A DNA stretch of 54,854 bases. It comes from Candidatus Bathyarchaeota archaeon (GTDB lineage: Archaea > Thermoproteota > Bathyarchaeia > Bathyarchaeales > Bathycorpusculaceae). A program made the translations under genes and the position numbers. Positions 30,976-39,340 of the stretch are shown here, piece by piece (position 1 is the stretch's first letter; each line of letters opens with the position of its first letter). The DNA lies in assembly GCA_013388895.1 (NCBI GenBank), contig JACAEK010000018.1, positions 1-54,854 on the forward strand. Reading direction: 5' to 3'. The notes below the pieces were generated by a model. It did no database searches, was not told where the DNA came from, and was given only the letters and a program-made list of their open reading frames with translations.

Positions 30976-32313
30976 CTAAATATTCCTTCTTAGGTCTCTA
31001 ACTCTTTTGGCTTTGCCCATAAACCTCGGCAAACTACCATAAGGAACAAGCTCAACTCTTGCCTTCACACCAACAATCGACTTAACATGCTCATCTATCT
31101 CCTTAACCAACGACTGCAACTTCGACAAGTCACCGCCTACGCTTTCAAAACATTCTTTGCTTGGTTCTAAACGCAACGTCATAACATCCAACTCTTCAGG
31201 CCTCTCAATAACGATTTCATAGTTTTCAGAAGCTCCATTCACACGCAAAAGCGCATGCTCAACCGTTTTCGGCCAAAATTTGACGCCTCTAATCTTCAGC
31301 ATGTCATCTGCTCTTCCAAATATTCTCTCCATCCTCACAGAAGTCCGTCCACATGCGCACTCGTCAACATTAAAAGAGGTAGTGTCGCCTGTTCTAAACC
31401 TCAGAACAGGTGTGGCTTGCCGCGTTAATGTAGTTAACACAAGTTCTCCTGTTTCACCCTCTTTAACTCTCTCACCTGTTTTGGGGTTAATGACTTCTGG
31501 TAAGAAATGGTCTTCCTCAATGTGCAACCCATCATGCTCTGGACATTCTACTGACACGCCTGGTCCGATTACTTCTGACAATCCATAAATGTCAAAGGCT
31601 TCCAATCCTAAAAGCTCTTCAATTCGCTCTCTGAGTTCTTCTGACCACGCTTCTGCGCCGAATAAACCGCTCTTCCACTTTAGGTCTTTAGCGGGGTCGA
31701 TGCCCATTTTCTCTTTAGCATATCTGCCCATAAATGCTGCATAACTAGGCGTGCACGTAAGCACAGTTGTTCCATACTCTTTTGCAAGGCTTATTTGACG
31801 TTCTGTTTCTCCTGCAGCAATAGGCAAAACTGTTGCGCCAATTTCTAAAGCTCCATAATGAAAGCCTAGACCGCCAGTGAATAAGCCGTATCCATAAGCG
31901 TTCTGCACTACGTCGCCTTTTCTTGTTCCAGCCGACGCATAAATTCTTGCCATAACTTTGGACCAAACTTCCAAATCGTTTTTAGTGTAAGCGCATGTTG
32001 TCGGATGTCCCGTTGTTCCGGAACTTGCATGCAACTCGAGAACATCGCCTAAGTCTGCAGCCAACATTCCATATGGATATGCTTTCCGCAAATCCTCCTT
32101 CTCAGTAAACGGAATTCTCCCCAAATCGTCCAAAGTTTTGACATCATCCGGAGTTATTCCAGCATCCTTAAACTTATCTCTGTAAATGAGAACTCGCTCA
32201 TAGCAATACTTCACAATCTTTCTAAGCCGCTCTTCCTGCAACTGCAAGAGCTTGTTTCTTGGCATTTTTTCAAATTCTGGCTGGAAAATCCAGCTCTCAA
32301 CTGAACCCTTCAT
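30976..32313 (-). CDS. paaK: Phenylacetate-CoA ligase family enzyme
   Basis: 445 residues of the PaaK branch of adenylate-forming enzymes: P-loop ASSGTTGHPT (about 96-105), the central YGLSEVIGPG motif, TGELVLTTLTRQATP, and RTGDTTSF plus the C-terminal domain ending FMGKAKRVRDLR with the catalytic Lys. It makes aryl-CoA from phenylacetate or related aromatic acids; archaeal copies serve indolepyruvate/phenylpyruvate-derived acids. Start ATG with GGTGAT just upstream. Strongest call is the family; the exact acid is unknown. Confidence 0.93.
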   Translation of the reverse strand: MKGSVESWIFQPEFEKMPRNKLLQLQEERLRKIVKYCYERVLIYRDKFKDAGITPDDVKTLDDLGRIPFTEKEDLRKAYPYGMLAADLGDVLELHASSGTTGHPTTCAYTKNDLEVWSKVMARIYASAGTRKGDVVQNAYGYGLFTGGLGFHYGALEIGATVLPIAAGETERQISLAKEYGTTVLTCTPSYAAFMGRYAKEKMGIDPAKDLKWKSGLFGAEAWSEELRERIEELLGLEAFDIYGLSEVIGPGVSVECPEHDGLHIEEDHFLPEVINPKTGERVKEGETGELVLTTLTRQATPVLRFRTGDTTSFNVDECACGRTSVRMERIFGRADDMLKIRGVKFWPKTVEHALLRVNGASENYEIVIERPEELDVMTLRLEPSKECFESVGGDLSKLQSLVKEIDEHVKSIVGVKARVELVPYGSLPRFMGKAKRVRDLRRNI

Positions 32314-32406: not shown

Positions 32407-34299
32407 TCAATCAGTAAGCCATCTGGAAATTTGTGTTTCCTTTTCAGTTTTCAACTCTATACCCATAGGTTTGAAAGTCTGGTCTAAGGCGGTAATCAAG
32501 TTTCTCACGTAATCTTCCACATTTATTTCGCCTAGATTGGTCACAAACTCTGCAGGTTTAACGGTGAAGGTTTTCTCCTTGTACTTGAAGGGCTTCACCT
32601 TGACGAAGGAAACAGTGTCCCACCGGTTAAGATGCTTGCCAGCGTCAATAAGCTGCACGGCACATTGATAAGGCTGAGGCGAAGTTTTCATATCGGCTAT
32701 TTTTTCGTTAGGGTCAAAATAAAGCCGCACTGAATAAGCTAAATCCTCTAAGCTAACCTTTCTGTTCCTCAAATCAGATACTGCTTTTGTGGCAACTTCT
32801 TTAATCATCTTCTTGGCTTGCGCATATTCTTCAAAATTCTTTACAGCAGAAAGTTCTCTAACACATTTGCCGAATACTTCGTTGATGAATTTTGGCGCAT
32901 TGGATTTCATCGGCGTGACGCCCTTAATATCTGGTGTTCCATCAGTCAATATTCCGAAATAGGCTTTCTTTGCCTTTGGCAGAACACACAAGTTATAACG
33001 CTTTTCAACAGCTAAATCCAAACTGAACCTTTCTTTCACTGCTTTGATTAACCATTCTACCTGCTCGTTAGAGACATTATCCAGAAACAGCGAATCTGTG
33101 TCGCCGTAAAGAGGTCTTAAACCTTTTCCTTCAGCCATTTTCCAAGATTCCTTAAGCACAAAACGACTATATCCTGTTATAGCTTCGGCGAGGGGCGGAC
33201 AGGCTACACCGTGAATTCTGACAGTCACGCCGTAACTGGAAACACTCATCAACTTCAAGAGTTTCGCCACTACGTTTGCCATTTTTCTCTCTTCTTCTGA
33301 CAGCGATTGGTTTTTGGCTGCTGGCTTGAACAGTTTTATTCGCAGTTCCTTCAAGGCGCCGACTAGTATGGAGTAGAAGCCTCTACGTTTTGTGCACACA
33401 TGGTAATCAACATCTGGAATCTTGTTGTCTCTGCATTCCGGATGAGCGCAATCTACTGTCTCGTAGGATAGGTTGAAGCTGTCGATGCAGCTTGGATATA
33501 GGCTTTCGAAATCACAAACAACAGTGTTGAAATAGATTCCAGGCGTCGGTGCAACAGTCAAAGCGCCTACAACTCTATGCGGAGTTTTTCCGCGCCTCAA
33601 CTCCTCAGCCGTAGGAATAAGCATGTTATTCTTTCTCAGCCAAGTGTAGATCATGGACTTTATCCAATCACTCACACGTCTACTGCTAAAGGCTTCAACC
33701 AACGGAATATTTGCGATTCTGGAAAGCATCCAGGCTGAATATAGTTTTTCTGGGTCAATTTCCTTAACACCGAAGAATTCTTGACCTAAGTGTGGAGTCG
33801 GTTGGAGAAGAAGATTAAGCCAATTCAAAATTTGAGCATACTTTGATGGGTCTTTTGTTTCAAATTCCTTGAAATTGTGTTCAAACTTTTGTCTCTCTGG
33901 TGGAGCTTCTAAAATTGGTTTTAAGTCGCTTTCAGAATGCAACGTTCCAAATACTAGGCCTTTATCGTAAACATATGATTTTGGAAAATCAACTTCACAT
34001 TCCCAAACTTGCCGAAATCTTTTAGCGGCTCTCAACGCAATTTTAGGATTAGGCCAGAAAACTTTAGTTAGGGGTTTTCTCTCGCCACTGAACAAGTCTG
34101 TTTTTTCTGTGACTTCTGTACTGCCGCTAAAGTATTTGACTGTTTCATTTTCTTCTTGAGTCAATGGGTAAAGTGCCAAAAAATATGGCTTGTATTTATC
34201 ATCTACGATTTCTTCCATTTTTCCCTCAGTATTTATGAATCTGAGTTTTATTGCGTTTGTTTCAGTTAGTGTTGCATCTAGAAGATATGCGGCATTCAA
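32407..34299 (-). CDS. Family B DNA polymerase lacking the 3'-5' exonuclease domain
   Basis: 630 residues against about 780-900 in usual archaeal PolB. Polymerase motif A DFESLYPS (263-270) and motif C YGDTDS (398-403) are intact; motif B reads KLLKLMSVSSYG (347-357), with Val where Asn of NSxYG is usual. Only about 70 residues lie between the N-terminal domain and the palm entry (SRIANIPLVEAF...DWIKSM), so ExoI-ExoII are absent and ExoIII is replaced. The start is TTG, 2 bases after the upstream radical-SAM gene. It is probably an active but non-proofreading polymerase, perhaps for lesion bypass. PolB2-type relatives are an alternative. Confidence 0.88.
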   Translation of the reverse strand: MNAAYLLDATLTETNAIKLRFINTEGKMEEIVDDKYKPYFLALYPLTQEENETVKYFSGSTEVTEKTDLFSGERKPLTKVFWPNPKIALRAAKRFRQVWECEVDFPKSYVYDKGLVFGTLHSESDLKPILEAPPERQKFEHNFKEFETKDPSKYAQILNWLNLLLQPTPHLGQEFFGVKEIDPEKLYSAWMLSRIANIPLVEAFSSRRVSDWIKSMIYTWLRKNNMLIPTAEELRRGKTPHRVVGALTVAPTPGIYFNTVVCDFESLYPSCIDSFNLSYETVDCAHPECRDNKIPDVDYHVCTKRRGFYSILVGALKELRIKLFKPAAKNQSLSEEERKMANVVAKLLKLMSVSSYGVTVRIHGVACPPLAEAITGYSRFVLKESWKMAEGKGLRPLYGDTDSLFLDNVSNEQVEWLIKAVKERFSLDLAVEKRYNLCVLPKAKKAYFGILTDGTPDIKGVTPMKSNAPKFINEVFGKCVRELSAVKNFEEYAQAKKMIKEVATKAVSDLRNRKVSLEDLAYSVRLYFDPNEKIADMKTSPQPYQCAVQLIDAGKHLNRWDTVSFVKVKPFKYKEKTFTVKPAEFVTNLGEINVEDYVRNLITALDQTFKPMGIELKTEKETQISRWLTD

Positions 34300-34301
34300 T
34301 G

Positions 34302-35336
34302 CTATGCTTCCTTTAAGCCTAATTCATTCTTTATCGTGTCAAGTTCTTTTTCTGTCAGCTTTTTGGGATAATTGTATATTGGACCGCTAGGCTTTTCATT
34401 GTAGTATGGGCGGTTACAGTCTGGGCTTCCAGATGTGACGAAAGGCTCGTTCCCTCGAGTAACCTGTAATAGCGTCGGGTTGTCAACGCCGAAGCCAGTT
34501 ATGCAGCCTTTCTCGTCGAAACGCATGTTTTCACATCGAACAATTCCACTTACTATTATATATCGTGCCAATTGAATTCGTCTATATGTTTGGATTGATG
34601 GTTGAGGCTTATTTTCTAACGCAGTTCCAGCAATAGGCGTAAAAGCGAAAAGAGCTGGAAGAATCCCCAAATTCACGCATCGCTGAACAGTTTCAACCAT
34701 TTCCTGTTCAGTTTCGCCTAACCCAACAATCAAATGAGTGCTAACCTTGCCTTCCCCAAAAACATTAACGGCATCGCTTAACAGTTCAAACTGCCTTTCC
34801 CAGCTGTATGGACCTTCTGCAAGTCTGCCCTTAACTTCATCAAACAGGTCTTCTGTTGCAGCATCCAATGGTATGCCGATTCTTTCAGCTCCTGCTTGAG
34901 CTAACAGCCTTATGTTTTCCCTATTCAGTGGCTGACATGAAACTGAAATTTGAACATTGGCCTTCTGACGAATCGCCCTTGCGAATGCTATCAAGTCTTT
35001 GATAACTTCGGGATAGTTTAAGGCTTGAAGACAGACACGTTTTATTCTGCCATTTTTGGCCGCCTTCTCCAGCCCATTTAACACATGTTCTGTTGGGAAG
35101 ACAGGCCACGAAACTCTTGATAACATGTCTGCTTTACTATGGCTTTTTTGAGCTTGAGGACAGAAACCGCAATTTGCAGTGCATTTGTTTTCTTTATACG
35201 TCATTAGATAAGCGGTTGTGGGTGCAGCGTCGAGTTTGCCACTTAAAAGACCGAGGACTATAGCGGAGCCTAGCGAAACGCGAATTTTCCTTGGGGCTTT
35301 CTGGGCTGTTGCCAAAGTTGCACGCTCTTGTTGCAT
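34302..35336 (-). CDS. Radical SAM protein, BioB-like, LipS-type candidate
   Basis: 344 residues with the cluster motif CTANCGFC (C52, C56, C59) in a biotin-synthase-like barrel (HLIVGLGETEQEMV). The C-terminus has the CNRPYYNEKPSGP stretch, which supplies an extra Cys. This end and the pairing with a second radical SAM gene 0.5 kb away fit LipS1/LipS2, the two-protein lipoyl synthase of archaea such as Thermococcus. Which of the two this is I cannot say. Cotranscribed with the polymerase gene (2-base gap). Biotin synthase itself is less likely. Confidence 0.75.
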   Translation of the reverse strand: MQQERATLATAQKAPRKIRVSLGSAIVLGLLSGKLDAAPTTAYLMTYKENKCTANCGFCPQAQKSHSKADMLSRVSWPVFPTEHVLNGLEKAAKNGRIKRVCLQALNYPEVIKDLIAFARAIRQKANVQISVSCQPLNRENIRLLAQAGAERIGIPLDAATEDLFDEVKGRLAEGPYSWERQFELLSDAVNVFGEGKVSTHLIVGLGETEQEMVETVQRCVNLGILPALFAFTPIAGTALENKPQPSIQTYRRIQLARYIIVSGIVRCENMRFDEKGCITGFGVDNPTLLQVTRGNEPFVTSGSPDCNRPYYNEKPSGPIYNYPKKLTEKELDTIKNELGLKEA

Positions 35337-35476
35337 TCTAGATTAAGTGAAGTTTGGGTTAATATCTGTTACAAATGTCCCTAAAAAATACTTGAGCAAT
35401 GTTGCGGTTTACTAATGATTCGAAATTCACAAACGATTTATCCCAAGTACGGCAACCGAAAATAGAGCGTGTTCGT

Positions 35477-35812
35477 ATGCGAAAATCAAAGCTTGAATCC
35501 TACGAGGAAATATTAGGTGTCATAGTCAAGAAGCCTCTAACCATTGATAGCATAGCTTACGAAACTGGTATGGAATGCACTGTTCTCAAGCAACGCTTGG
35601 ATTTCTTAATGCAAAATAGTCTGGTTGAAGAGCGTGTTTCAGGCAAGAAAACATTGTACGCAATCACTGAGCGTGGTTTATCCGTTTACAGAACTCTCAG
35701 CTTCCAGAAATACCTCGAAAAAGTGGCTACTGCCATCCGGACAATGGATGAAGCGATACATGTTATCCCATTGATAGAGGACAGCGAAGATAAGGAAAAC
35801 GAAAACTATTAA
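35477..35812 (+). CDS. Winged-helix regulator between two radical SAM genes
   Basis: About 111 residues from ATG 35477: a winged helix (LESYEEILGVIVKKPLTIDSIA, then LKQRLDFLMQNSLVEERVSG) and a long C-terminal helix ending acidic. It resembles the HTH_45-type archaeal family seen at 12891. The frame extends up to 35399, but without a ribosome-binding site. It is divergent from one radical SAM gene and 31 bases before the other, so it may control both. Ligand unknown. Confidence 0.72.
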   Translation: MRKSKLESYEEILGVIVKKPLTIDSIAYETGMECTVLKQRLDFLMQNSLVEERVSGKKTLYAITERGLSVYRTLSFQKYLEKVATAIRTMDEAIHVIPLIEDSEDKENENY

Positions 35813-35843
35813 GCAAAGTTTCAAGTTTTCCATAGCGAAGGCA

Positions 35844-36848
35844 ATGAATCGACTTCTACCTAGAACTGTTTGGGAAATGAATGAAGCGCAGCTCAGAAGG
35901 CTGTTAGATACAGGAATGCCTATTTTGAATTCGAAGAGAATTCGTTTTTATGCGCCAAGTTTCATGTATTACAAAACAAGCCATTACTGTTCTTCAAAAA
36001 AGGATTTCCCAACAATTTCTATCACTGGCAAGGGCTGTGCGCTTAAGTGTAAGCATTGCGGTGGAAAAGTTTTGGAAACAATGCATCCAGCCACGACTCC
36101 AGATAGGCTATTTGACTTATGCGCCAAGTTCAAAGATAATGGTGCTTCGGGTTGTCTGATAAGCGGTGGATGTCTGCCTAATGGTTATGTGCCTTTAGGA
36201 AATTTTGCTGATGCTATTGGAAGAGTTAAGCGTGAATTGAGTTTGACTGTTTTTGTGCACACAGGCGTCATTGATTCTGATACTGCCAAGAAGCTTAAGA
36301 ATGCCGGTGTTGACGCAGCGTTAATTGACGTTATCGGCTCAGACGAGACAATACGAGAAATTTACAATCTAAATGTGACTGTCAATGATTACGAGAATTC
36401 CTTAAAGGCGCTGCATGAAGTCGGCATAGTGTTTGTGCCTCACGTTATCGTGGGTCTTCATTATGGAAAGCTGAAAGGCGAATTCCAAGCCCTAAAAACG
36501 ATATCTCAATACAAGCCCTCCGCCCTCGTAGTAATCGCCTTCATGCCCATTCACGGAACAGAAATGGCAAATGTTGAACCGCCAAAATCCATCGACATAG
36601 CCAAAGTAGTGGCAGCAGCTAGGCTTATGTTTCCTCAAACACCATTGGTTCTTGGCTGTATGCGACCAAAAGGAAAACACCGCATAGAAACAGACACTTA
36701 CGCCATAAAAGCCGGAGTAAATGCCATTGCATTTCCAGCAGAAGAAGTCATAAAATTCGCCGAAACCCAAGGATGCAGCGTATCCTTTTCCTCGTTCTGC
36801 TGCGCACAAATTTATGCGGACATTAAGTCTTCTCGCTTCGATTTCTAA
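35844..36848 (+). CDS. Radical SAM protein, LipS-type candidate
   Basis: 334 residues. The cluster motif is CALKCKHCGG (C65, C69, C72) preceded by SHYCSSKKDFPTISITG, with another Cys (C49), and the end has SSFCCAQIY. Extra cysteines at both sides suggest a second FeS cluster that can be consumed as sulfur donor, as in lipoyl synthases. With the divergent BioB-like gene it fits the archaeal LipS1/LipS2 pair, which inserts two sulfurs into octanoyl groups. No lipoate ligase or H protein is in the window, so the assignment rests on sequence and pairing. Confidence 0.72.
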   Translation: MNRLLPRTVWEMNEAQLRRLLDTGMPILNSKRIRFYAPSFMYYKTSHYCSSKKDFPTISITGKGCALKCKHCGGKVLETMHPATTPDRLFDLCAKFKDNGASGCLISGGCLPNGYVPLGNFADAIGRVKRELSLTVFVHTGVIDSDTAKKLKNAGVDAALIDVIGSDETIREIYNLNVTVNDYENSLKALHEVGIVFVPHVIVGLHYGKLKGEFQALKTISQYKPSALVVIAFMPIHGTEMANVEPPKSIDIAKVVAAARLMFPQTPLVLGCMRPKGKHRIETDTYAIKAGVNAIAFPAEEVIKFAETQGCSVSFSSFCCAQIYADIKSSRFDF

Positions 36849-38203: not shown

Positions 38204-39340
38204 TCAATGGATTAGGTCTTCTGGAACAAACTGCCTAAGCCTCTGCAAAAACCACATCTTGTCCTTATCGCCAACTTTGGCTTCTTGAATTGCTTGCTTA
38301 AGCATGTGAATCGACTGGTCCATGGCTTTGCGATTCACTGGATAAGGCACGCCGTCTTTTCCTCCATAAGCAAAAGAGTATTTCACTGGGTCTTTCCAGC
38401 TTGGCTTCTCGCCATAGACAAGCTCTGCGACTAGGGCTAAGCCTCTGACAGTTGCTGGACCTACTCCTCTGAATCCTAATAGTTCCTCGTAGTTTTTGGG
38501 TTGAAACTCGTAAACTGCCTTTAACATTTTCCAGTTTATGTTTCGAGGCATGGATAAGACATCTATTGGATAATCTTTCCACGCAGCGTCAGCGATTTTT
38601 GGCAGCCATTCTTGAATTGACTTCTGATAAGTCGGCCTGACAGACATGAGCATGCGCATAGTTTTTTTCGGCGGTTCCTTAGCTATATCAACTGATGTTC
38701 TTCTGCAGTCTTCACTTTCTTTTGCGGTCATGTCTAAGGCAACTTCACGCTTTATATCGCCGACGATGCCACTGTGAGGTTCAACAACAAAGCTTCTTAT
38801 ATTACCTGAAAGCCAATGATAACGTCTTGCCGTGCGGTCTTGCGTGCTCATACCTTGCTGAACAACCGCCCATTTCCCATTTTCATCAACAAAGAAGGCG
38901 TGATGATAAAGCTGATAACCAGCCTGAATCGCTGCATTATCCACTTTGGCGCTCATTTTGCTTGCATAACATAAAGTTTCAACATTGGCGTTTGAGAAGC
39001 CAAATTTTTCGCCGATGTTCACAATTTCTGAAGGTGCTTGCCGAGACATTCTGCCTTTACCACCACCCACAGCAATCCCGTGATCTTCTTGTGCGATGGC
39101 TTGTTTCAGAACGCCCGTCACAACCGTTGTGACCCCTGATGAATGCCAATCATAGCCCAAAACACAACCTAATGCTTGAAACCAGAAAGGGTCAGAAATT
39201 CGCTCCAGAAACTCGGCGGTGCCATATTCGTTAACGATTATTGTTACGATTTCTCGGGCAAGTTTCTGCATGCGAACAACTAGCCATCTTGGCGCCCTAC
39301 CATAATGAAGCGGAAGTTTGGCAATGCCTGTTCTTTGCAC
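38204..39340 (-). CDS. DUF763 family protein
   Basis: 378 residues, full length, from MQRTGIAKLPLHYGRAPRWL, the invariant start of DUF763. Other blocks are WHSSGVTTVVTGVLKQAI and GVGGGKGRMSRQAP-type Gly/Arg runs, then LGFRGVGPATVRGLALVAEL, a helix-hairpin-helix-like element that suggests nucleic-acid binding. The family is common in archaea and thermophilic bacteria but has no established function. It stands alone, downstream of a GNAT gene in divergent orientation. Confidence 0.9.
   Translation of the reverse strand: MQRTGIAKLPLHYGRAPRWLVVRMQKLAREIVTIIVNEYGTAEFLERISDPFWFQALGCVLGYDWHSSGVTTVVTGVLKQAIAQEDHGIAVGGGKGRMSRQAPSEIVNIGEKFGFSNANVETLCYASKMSAKVDNAAIQAGYQLYHHAFFVDENGKWAVVQQGMSTQDRTARRYHWLSGNIRSFVVEPHSGIVGDIKREVALDMTAKESEDCRRTSVDIAKEPPKKTMRMLMSVRPTYQKSIQEWLPKIADAAWKDYPIDVLSMPRNINWKMLKAVYEFQPKNYEELLGFRGVGPATVRGLALVAELVYGEKPSWKDPVKYSFAYGGKDGVPYPVNRKAMDQSIHMLKQAIQEAKVGDKDKMWFLQRLRQFVPEDLIH

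Follow-up and report, generated by a model that had tools for sequence, protein, structure and literature searches.

The window analysed here is a 54,854 nt stretch of a contig from Candidatus Bathyarchaeota archaeon (JACAEK010000018.1). It carries a short gene of the B family of DNA polymerases (short polB) next to lipoate genes (Table 1), and the coordinates and frame assigned to it in an earlier sequence-only reading were right. The radical SAM neighbour mentioned in that reading was identified as LipS2, encoded on the same strand at a distance of 2 nt; from this spacing, the two genes are likely cotranscribed. The divergent arrangement of LipS2 and LipS1 with the winged-helix gene (34302-36848) recurs in many Bathyarchaeia, and the gene of the DUF763 protein is kept near the lipoate cluster in several relatives.

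Table 1. Features of the short polB locus, with positions in the window.
Feature	Position	Strand	Basis or remark
CoA-ligase-like gene, downstream of polB	30976-32313	-	named by eye
Exonuclease-less family B DNA polymerase, 630 aa, most likely a PolB1-side paralogue	32407-34299	-	TTG start
Candidate PCNA-interaction-like C-terminal peptide ETQISRWL	32416-32439	-	C termini of orthologues compared
Palm, fingers and thumb, residues 186-618	32446-33744	-	PF00136; 1s5j aligned over model residues 1-621
Motif C, YGDTDS	33091-33108	-	alignment; 48/48 rows with letters
Motif B, KLMSVSSYGV; Lys349, and Val353 where Asn is expected	33226-33255	-	alignment; each 49/49
Motif A, DFESLYPS; catalytic Asp263, steric-gate Tyr268	33490-33513	-	each 49/49 short rows
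Linker of ~70 residues, mostly helical, replacing the exonuclease domain; residues 117-185	33745-33951	-	alignment, model, lengths
N-terminal domain, PolB1-like, residues 1-116	33952-34299	-	alignment; weak phmmer match to 1s5j N-domain; confident model
LipS2 lipoyl synthase (radical SAM), upstream of polB	34302-35336	-	NF053743, 356.6 bits (cut-off 270)
Winged-helix gene between LipS2 and LipS1	35399-35812		HTH_45 match; sub-threshold Sso10a-family match
LipS1 lipoyl synthase (radical SAM), divergent	35844-36848	+	NF053742, 252.7 bits (cut-off 230)
DUF763 protein	38204-39340		449.5 bits

Domain composition and predicted structure

The Pfam search of the 630-aa ORF returned PF00136 (DNA_pol_B) alone (E = 2e-32, residues 207-611), with no match to the exonuclease domain PF03104, which was found in 0 of 4 short proteins scanned with Pfam. 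In the same genome, PF03104 was matched in both PolB1 and PolB3, and the full-length PolB1 (L002, 900 aa) matched PF00136 as well. The DNA_pol_B domain, together with motifs A and C in 49 distinct rows, places the short proteins in the B family; the 3′-5′ exonuclease domain that belongs to the description of PolB1 is missing from them. When aligned with PolB1, the N-terminal domain and the palm-fingers-thumb region match, and the exonuclease domain between them is absent. The median distance from YVYD in the N-terminal domain to motif A was 155 residues in the short proteins (n = 47 of the 49 distinct rows, two partial rows being dropped); for PolB1 (n = 95) and PolB3 (n = 13), the medians were 350 and 302. 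The short proteins therefore lack approximately 195 residues relative to PolB1. The claim of a family B polymerase without a proofreading domain was thus borne out by Pfam, lengths and orthologues, and the approximately 70 residues reported at the exonuclease position were indeed found, extending from the N-terminal domain to the palm.

The AlphaFold2 model of the protein, built from 20 orthologues, had a mean pLDDT of 88.9 and a pTM of 0.81, and values below 50 were confined to the last 12 residues. Its best solved relative was PolB1 of Sulfolobus solfataricus (1s5j), first among 999 aligned PDB chains (Z 38.0, 2.8 Å over 517 residues), with the runner-up at Z 32.2. The model reads as a PolB1 minus the exonuclease lobe. 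The best NCBIfam models belonged to the PRK05761 DNA polymerase I group, all under cut-off. The PHROGs search returned generic DNA polymerases, and the Foldseek search of a viral library returned generic viral polymerases. A weak PADLOC match, in which a 1671-position "homing endonuclease" model covered polymerase residues, was judged uninformative.

The C-terminal pattern hxxWL/WF/FF recurs in many orthologues. Such an hxxWF-like peptide resembles a PCNA-interaction (PIP) motif; it lacks the canonical Gln, and its sequence suggests a putative contact with PCNA.

Active site and phylogenetic position

Active-site residues were compared in an alignment of 49 distinct short, 95 PolB1 and 13 PolB3 sequences. 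The short rows were obtained by collapsing the listed short loci to distinct sequences, and stop-holding copies were entered as their longest open piece. Motifs A and C, described as perfect in the sequence-only reading, are intact, with the catalytic Asp in 49/49 and DTD in 48/48 rows. Its remark that motif B lacks the usual Asn also held: the KxxxNxxYG form typical of PolB1 is not retained, since Val occupies the Asn position in all 49 short rows, compared to Asn in 95/95 PolB1 and 13/13 PolB3 rows. In KOD polymerase, the equivalent residue N491, four positions after K487, makes a stacking contact with the nascent pair and bonds to both the β-phosphate and the 3′-OH (PMC5718519). At the Tyr position of the YxGA pol-exo hinge, all 48 short rows with a letter have Val or Ile, versus Tyr/Phe in all 95 PolB1 rows and Tyr in all 13 PolB3 rows. 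A C-H-C...C cluster after motif A is common to the short proteins and PolB1. In all eight Hermodarchaeota rows, the Tyr of motif B is changed to Gly, a loss that could mean reduced activity.

The same motif B Val was found in seven of seven PolB2-side sequences (L295-L299, L309 and L310). The short proteins keep the first Asp of motif C, which is lost in most PolB2 members; among the seven PolB2-side sequences, motif C is complete in L297 and near-complete in L296. The L297 polymerase combines a fully canonical motif C with Val at the motif B Asn position. Three of the seven adjoin a PPB2-like gene, and two of these three also an iRadA-like gene, both named by eye (size, order and MGRT/MGKT start) following a published locus description (PMC11791011). 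The sequence-only reading had described the short polymerase as the reverse of PolB2-type decay. This proved too strong: PolB2 has also lost proofreading, L297 keeps motif C, and motif B Val is present in 7/7 PolB2-side rows.

The phylogenetic tree with PolB1, PolB2, PolB3 and viral PolB, proposed in the sequence-only reading, was inferred for 88 rows (29 short, 36 full-length PolB1, 4 viral PolB1-like, 12 PolB3 and 7 PolB2) and put the short proteins on the PolB1 side. They form one clade of 29 rows with support 100, sister to all 36 PolB1 and four viral PolB1-like rows (support 100). PolB3 (support 100) and PolB2 form clades separate from the short proteins. The viral rows (L116, L117, L119 and L121) nest within cellular PolB1 in two places. 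A second tree was restricted to the palm-thumb columns, excluding those of the hinge and the motif B Asn, and to 58 rows, 30 of the 88 being left out by choice. The short clade again had support 100 and fell on the PolB1 side, but was drawn inside PolB1 with support 86-88. Holding PolB1 and the viral rows as one clade gave a likelihood 9.45 log-units better than that of the free 58-row tree (p-AU 0.75), while forcing the short proteins and PolB2 into one clade made it 33.8 log-units worse (p-AU 0.044, a marginal rejection).

Taken together, the two trees and the topology tests indicate that the short family branched off early as a paralogue on the PolB1 side, most likely as the sister of all PolB1; the short proteins are neither PolB2 nor PolB3. 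Given this placement, the motif B Val common to PolB2 would have arisen in parallel, unless the tree is rooted at a different point. PolB1 (Dpo1), the replicative enzyme of Thermoproteota and Asgard archaea, is the closest to the short polymerase both in sequence (~36-41% over residues 190-616) and in structure, and the N-terminal domain is common to both. The short polymerase differs from it in the missing exonuclease domain, the motif B Asn to Val change and the lost hinge Tyr; it belongs to a separate clade and coexists with true PolB1 in the same genome.

Distribution, genomic context and co-occurrence

A short orthologue was detected at 48-84% identity in 21 of 60 related genomes, a count that includes the host genome and two partial copies at contig ends; this recurrence takes the architecture far beyond chance. 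Full-exonuclease relatives at the locus, which would have spoken for a local deletion, were sought and are absent; the orthologues are all short. Across the Bathyarchaeia class, orthologues of the same length (~630 aa) were present in 53 of 256 genomes, with no match in the other 203, i.e., the distribution is patchy. Of 398 genomes drawn from the phylum, 21 reached the threshold. Twenty belong to the class set counted above; the remaining match is not of the short type, because its frame is 834 aa long. In the Asgard phylum, nine of 227 genomes passed: in eight the frame measures 659-665 aa, and in the ninth it measures 900 aa and the protein groups with PolB1. Short orthologues were present in 8/227 Asgard-phylum genomes (Hermodarchaeota); two of the Asgard matches have named records, both Hermodarchaeota-type. 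Two genomes (G172 and G109) each carry two short-polymerase copies.

The short polB gene is under purifying selection. Four sequence pairs gave dN/dS values of 0.12, 0.10, 0.10 and 0.14. A fifth gave 0.05, at a dS close to saturation (1.3), and the ratio was undefined for a sixth. Stops were found in three copies: in G001, the sole other genome of the same genus among those searched, an in-frame TAA follows codon 144 of the matched region, G199 has one TGA, and G021 has a stop near the N-terminus. These stops may be assembly errors or decay.

Short polB was accompanied by LipS2 (15 stretches) and/or an LplA-like gene named by eye (9 stretches, two with both) in 22 of the 34 stretches examined; two of the 34 are the same contig and one (L050) is a PolB1. 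Conversely, LipS2 was present in 51 of 60 related genomes, and 8 of the 30 loci read have polB immediately downstream. In G025 (locus L322), where no short polB was found, a CoA-ligase-like gene directly follows LipS2, and at further polB-less loci the next gene is CoA-transferase-like (G023), LplA-like (G045) or a member of cluster C8 (11 loci). These genes lie beyond polB in carriers; therefore, polB is a single present-or-absent gene in an old lipoate cluster. No functional link between polB and lipoate was found, and many LipS2 genomes are without polB at this slot. The slot in Hermodarchaeota differs: an alpha/beta-hydrolase-type gene precedes polB in full in three of four stretches. A gene with a LigD 3′-phosphoesterase domain lies near short polB in 3/4 Hermodarchaeota stretches examined, while the Bathyarchaeia neighbours are lipoate genes and not repair genes. 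The LigD 3′-phosphoesterase-domain genes of Hermodarchaeota (L305, L306 and L308) stand alone.

The operon with iRadA and PPB2 described for PolB2 was sought by tblastn, with queries from L295, L298 and L299, in 36 short stretches and the window, and no match was obtained at E 0.01. This search is weak across loci, as PPB2 cross-matched only one other PolB2 locus, and divergent small genes could be missed.

The host genome (1.58 Mb, 58 contigs, 95.8% complete) contains the second full-length PolB and the PolD that the sequence-only reading had advised looking for, namely PolB1 in a 901-aa frame (L002), PolB3 cut by a contig end, and PolD DP2, as well as one Y-family polymerase. No PolB2 was seen in this genome: the best PolB2-profile match (E 7e-57) falls in the range where many genomes match the profile via other PolB genes. 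The genome of the same genus, G001, had a PolB2 match at 2.7e-265. Some matches are split inside open frames of ~950-1650 aa, the pattern expected of inteins, for PolB2 in class genomes G061, G066, G072 and G075 and for PolB in Asgard-side genomes G376, G412, G430 and G457.

By tests that ignore kinship, a Y-family polymerase was found in 39/53 short-polB carriers versus 98/203 non-carriers (Fisher's test, p = 0.001), and PolB2, at a self-chosen cut-off of E ≤ 1e-90, in 28/53 versus 65/203 (Fisher's test, p = 0.006). The association being positive, replacement of either polymerase by short polB is unsupported. As both co-occur with short polB, a separate need for it is not obvious.

Proposed function and significance

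A bypass or repair role of the short polymerase is plausible from its sequence, and we infer that the enzyme specialises in repair or translesion synthesis, probably as an extender. This is the best inference because a PolB2-like loss of proofreading is combined with an intact catalytic centre. Dpo2 (PolB2) is active, has no exonuclease activity, and extends mismatched and lesion-containing termini (PMC8764526). The short polymerase shares with this translesion extender, which is associated with iRadA and PPB2, the absence of working proofreading, the motif B Val and, likely, an accessory role. It differs in its distinct clade, its intact motif C DTD, an exonuclease domain that is cut out rather than decayed, and the lack of a detected iRadA or PPB2 gene nearby within the tblastn scope. 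Eukaryotic Pol zeta (Rev3) is likewise a B-family extender without proofreading (PMC8764526, PMC11791011), but it keeps an inactivated exonuclease domain, is multi-subunit and belongs to a Delta-like clade (PMC7544198).

Our preferred reading, held with slightly better than even confidence, is an active, proofreading-free, clamp-tethered extender or repair polymerase of the B family, derived from PolB1 stock in parallel to PolB2. In this reading, the exonuclease was lost in one piece, so that a short helical linker now joins the N-terminal domain to the palm, with the two-metal polymerase centre and the steric-gate Tyr retained. A primer end that is mismatched or damaged would stay in place for lack of an exonuclease, and the loss of the YxGA hinge Tyr would fit an enzyme that needs no pol-exo switch. 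The Asn to Val change in motif B may loosen contacts to the dNTP β-phosphate, the 3′-OH and the nascent base pair. PCNA would probably recruit the polymerase via its C-terminal peptide, and the enzyme would extend the distorted end by a few nucleotides, then hand it back to PolB1 or PolD, as a PolB1-chassis counterpart of the job of PolB2 (Dpo2) in Sulfolobus. The LigD-type genes of Hermodarchaeota count in favour of this reading. Weighing against it are the lipoate neighbours in Bathyarchaeia, the patchy distribution, the co-occurrence with Y-family polymerase and PolB2, the stops in three copies, the motif B Tyr loss in Hermodarchaeota and the missing Gln of the PIP-like peptide.

The main competitor, to which we assign a distinctly smaller though appreciable probability, is a gap-filling or end-processing polymerase of base-excision or end-joining type, making short patches that need no proofreading. 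The small, exonuclease-free and accessory nature of the enzyme would suit such work, as would the LigD-type genes of Hermodarchaeota. However, no LigD-type neighbour was recognised in the Bathyarchaeia stretches, whose genes are partly annotated, and the motif B Val common to the translesion group PolB2 points to primer-end tolerance. It is rather improbable that the protein is a structural or regulatory homologue which binds primer-template or PolB1 and hardly polymerises, as PolB2 was once read: the motif B Asn is lost throughout and the motif B Tyr in the 8/8 Hermodarchaeota rows, but the catalytic Asp and steric gate are invariant under purifying selection, and PolB2 is active despite worse substitutions (PMC8764526).

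The patchy presence between conserved neighbours would also fit a mobile-element or viral polymerase, domesticated or chromosome-borne, and viral PolB1-like polymerases do exist (L116-L121). We consider such an origin very improbable. The four viral tree rows sit inside full-length PolB1, away from the short clade, and on this ground viral origin was rejected; in addition, the best viral matches among those listed are 33-34% identical, the complete-looking ORFs (L116-L119 and L121) measure 803-839 aa, and the same syntenic slot is occupied across genera. No short relative was recognised in a pattern-based scan of the 80 of 106 viral-contig loci fetched, which were partly inspected and supplied the four polymerases of the tree. 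The stops in the G001, G199 and G021 copies could hint at a local deletion, misassembly or pseudogene in one genome, but tens of independent assemblies share this architecture, and dN/dS is ~0.1. The short orthologues rule out local deletion or misassembly, and the probability of any such accident is next to nil.

In the published archaeal scheme, a single clade holds PolB1, PolB2 and PolB3 (PMC4104785, PMC7544198). Groups B4-B10, described by Kazlauskas et al. (2020), likewise extend archaeal PolB beyond B1-B3, but the paper assigns them to other clades, PolII-, Epsilon- or Delta-like for those placed (PMC7544198). In the sections covered here, that paper names no exonuclease-less archaeal group in the B1-3-like clade besides B2. 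An archaeal PolB without exonuclease is already known as a kind, from PolB2. Against the accessible descriptions of PolB1-3 and B4-B10, the short lineage appears to be new, as do its origin and intact centre, and a search of the accessible literature found no description of the lineage.

The short family adds a fourth conserved lineage, present in Bathyarchaeia and an Asgard group, in which proofreading is lost and the canonical active site is kept. It matters for annotation, because its best database matches are PolB1 models. It also separates exonuclease loss from motif C disruption, two changes confounded in PolB2. It is possible, though we rate it somewhat below even, that archaea made proofreading-free B-family extenders twice, as PolB2 and by clean excision of the exonuclease from a PolB1 paralogue whose catalytic centre stayed canonical, converging on the motif B Asn to Val change. 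If true, this substitution would serve as a sequence hallmark of mismatch tolerance in the B family and might even cause it, and the short polymerases open a direct test of whether it lets a B-family polymerase extend bad primer ends.
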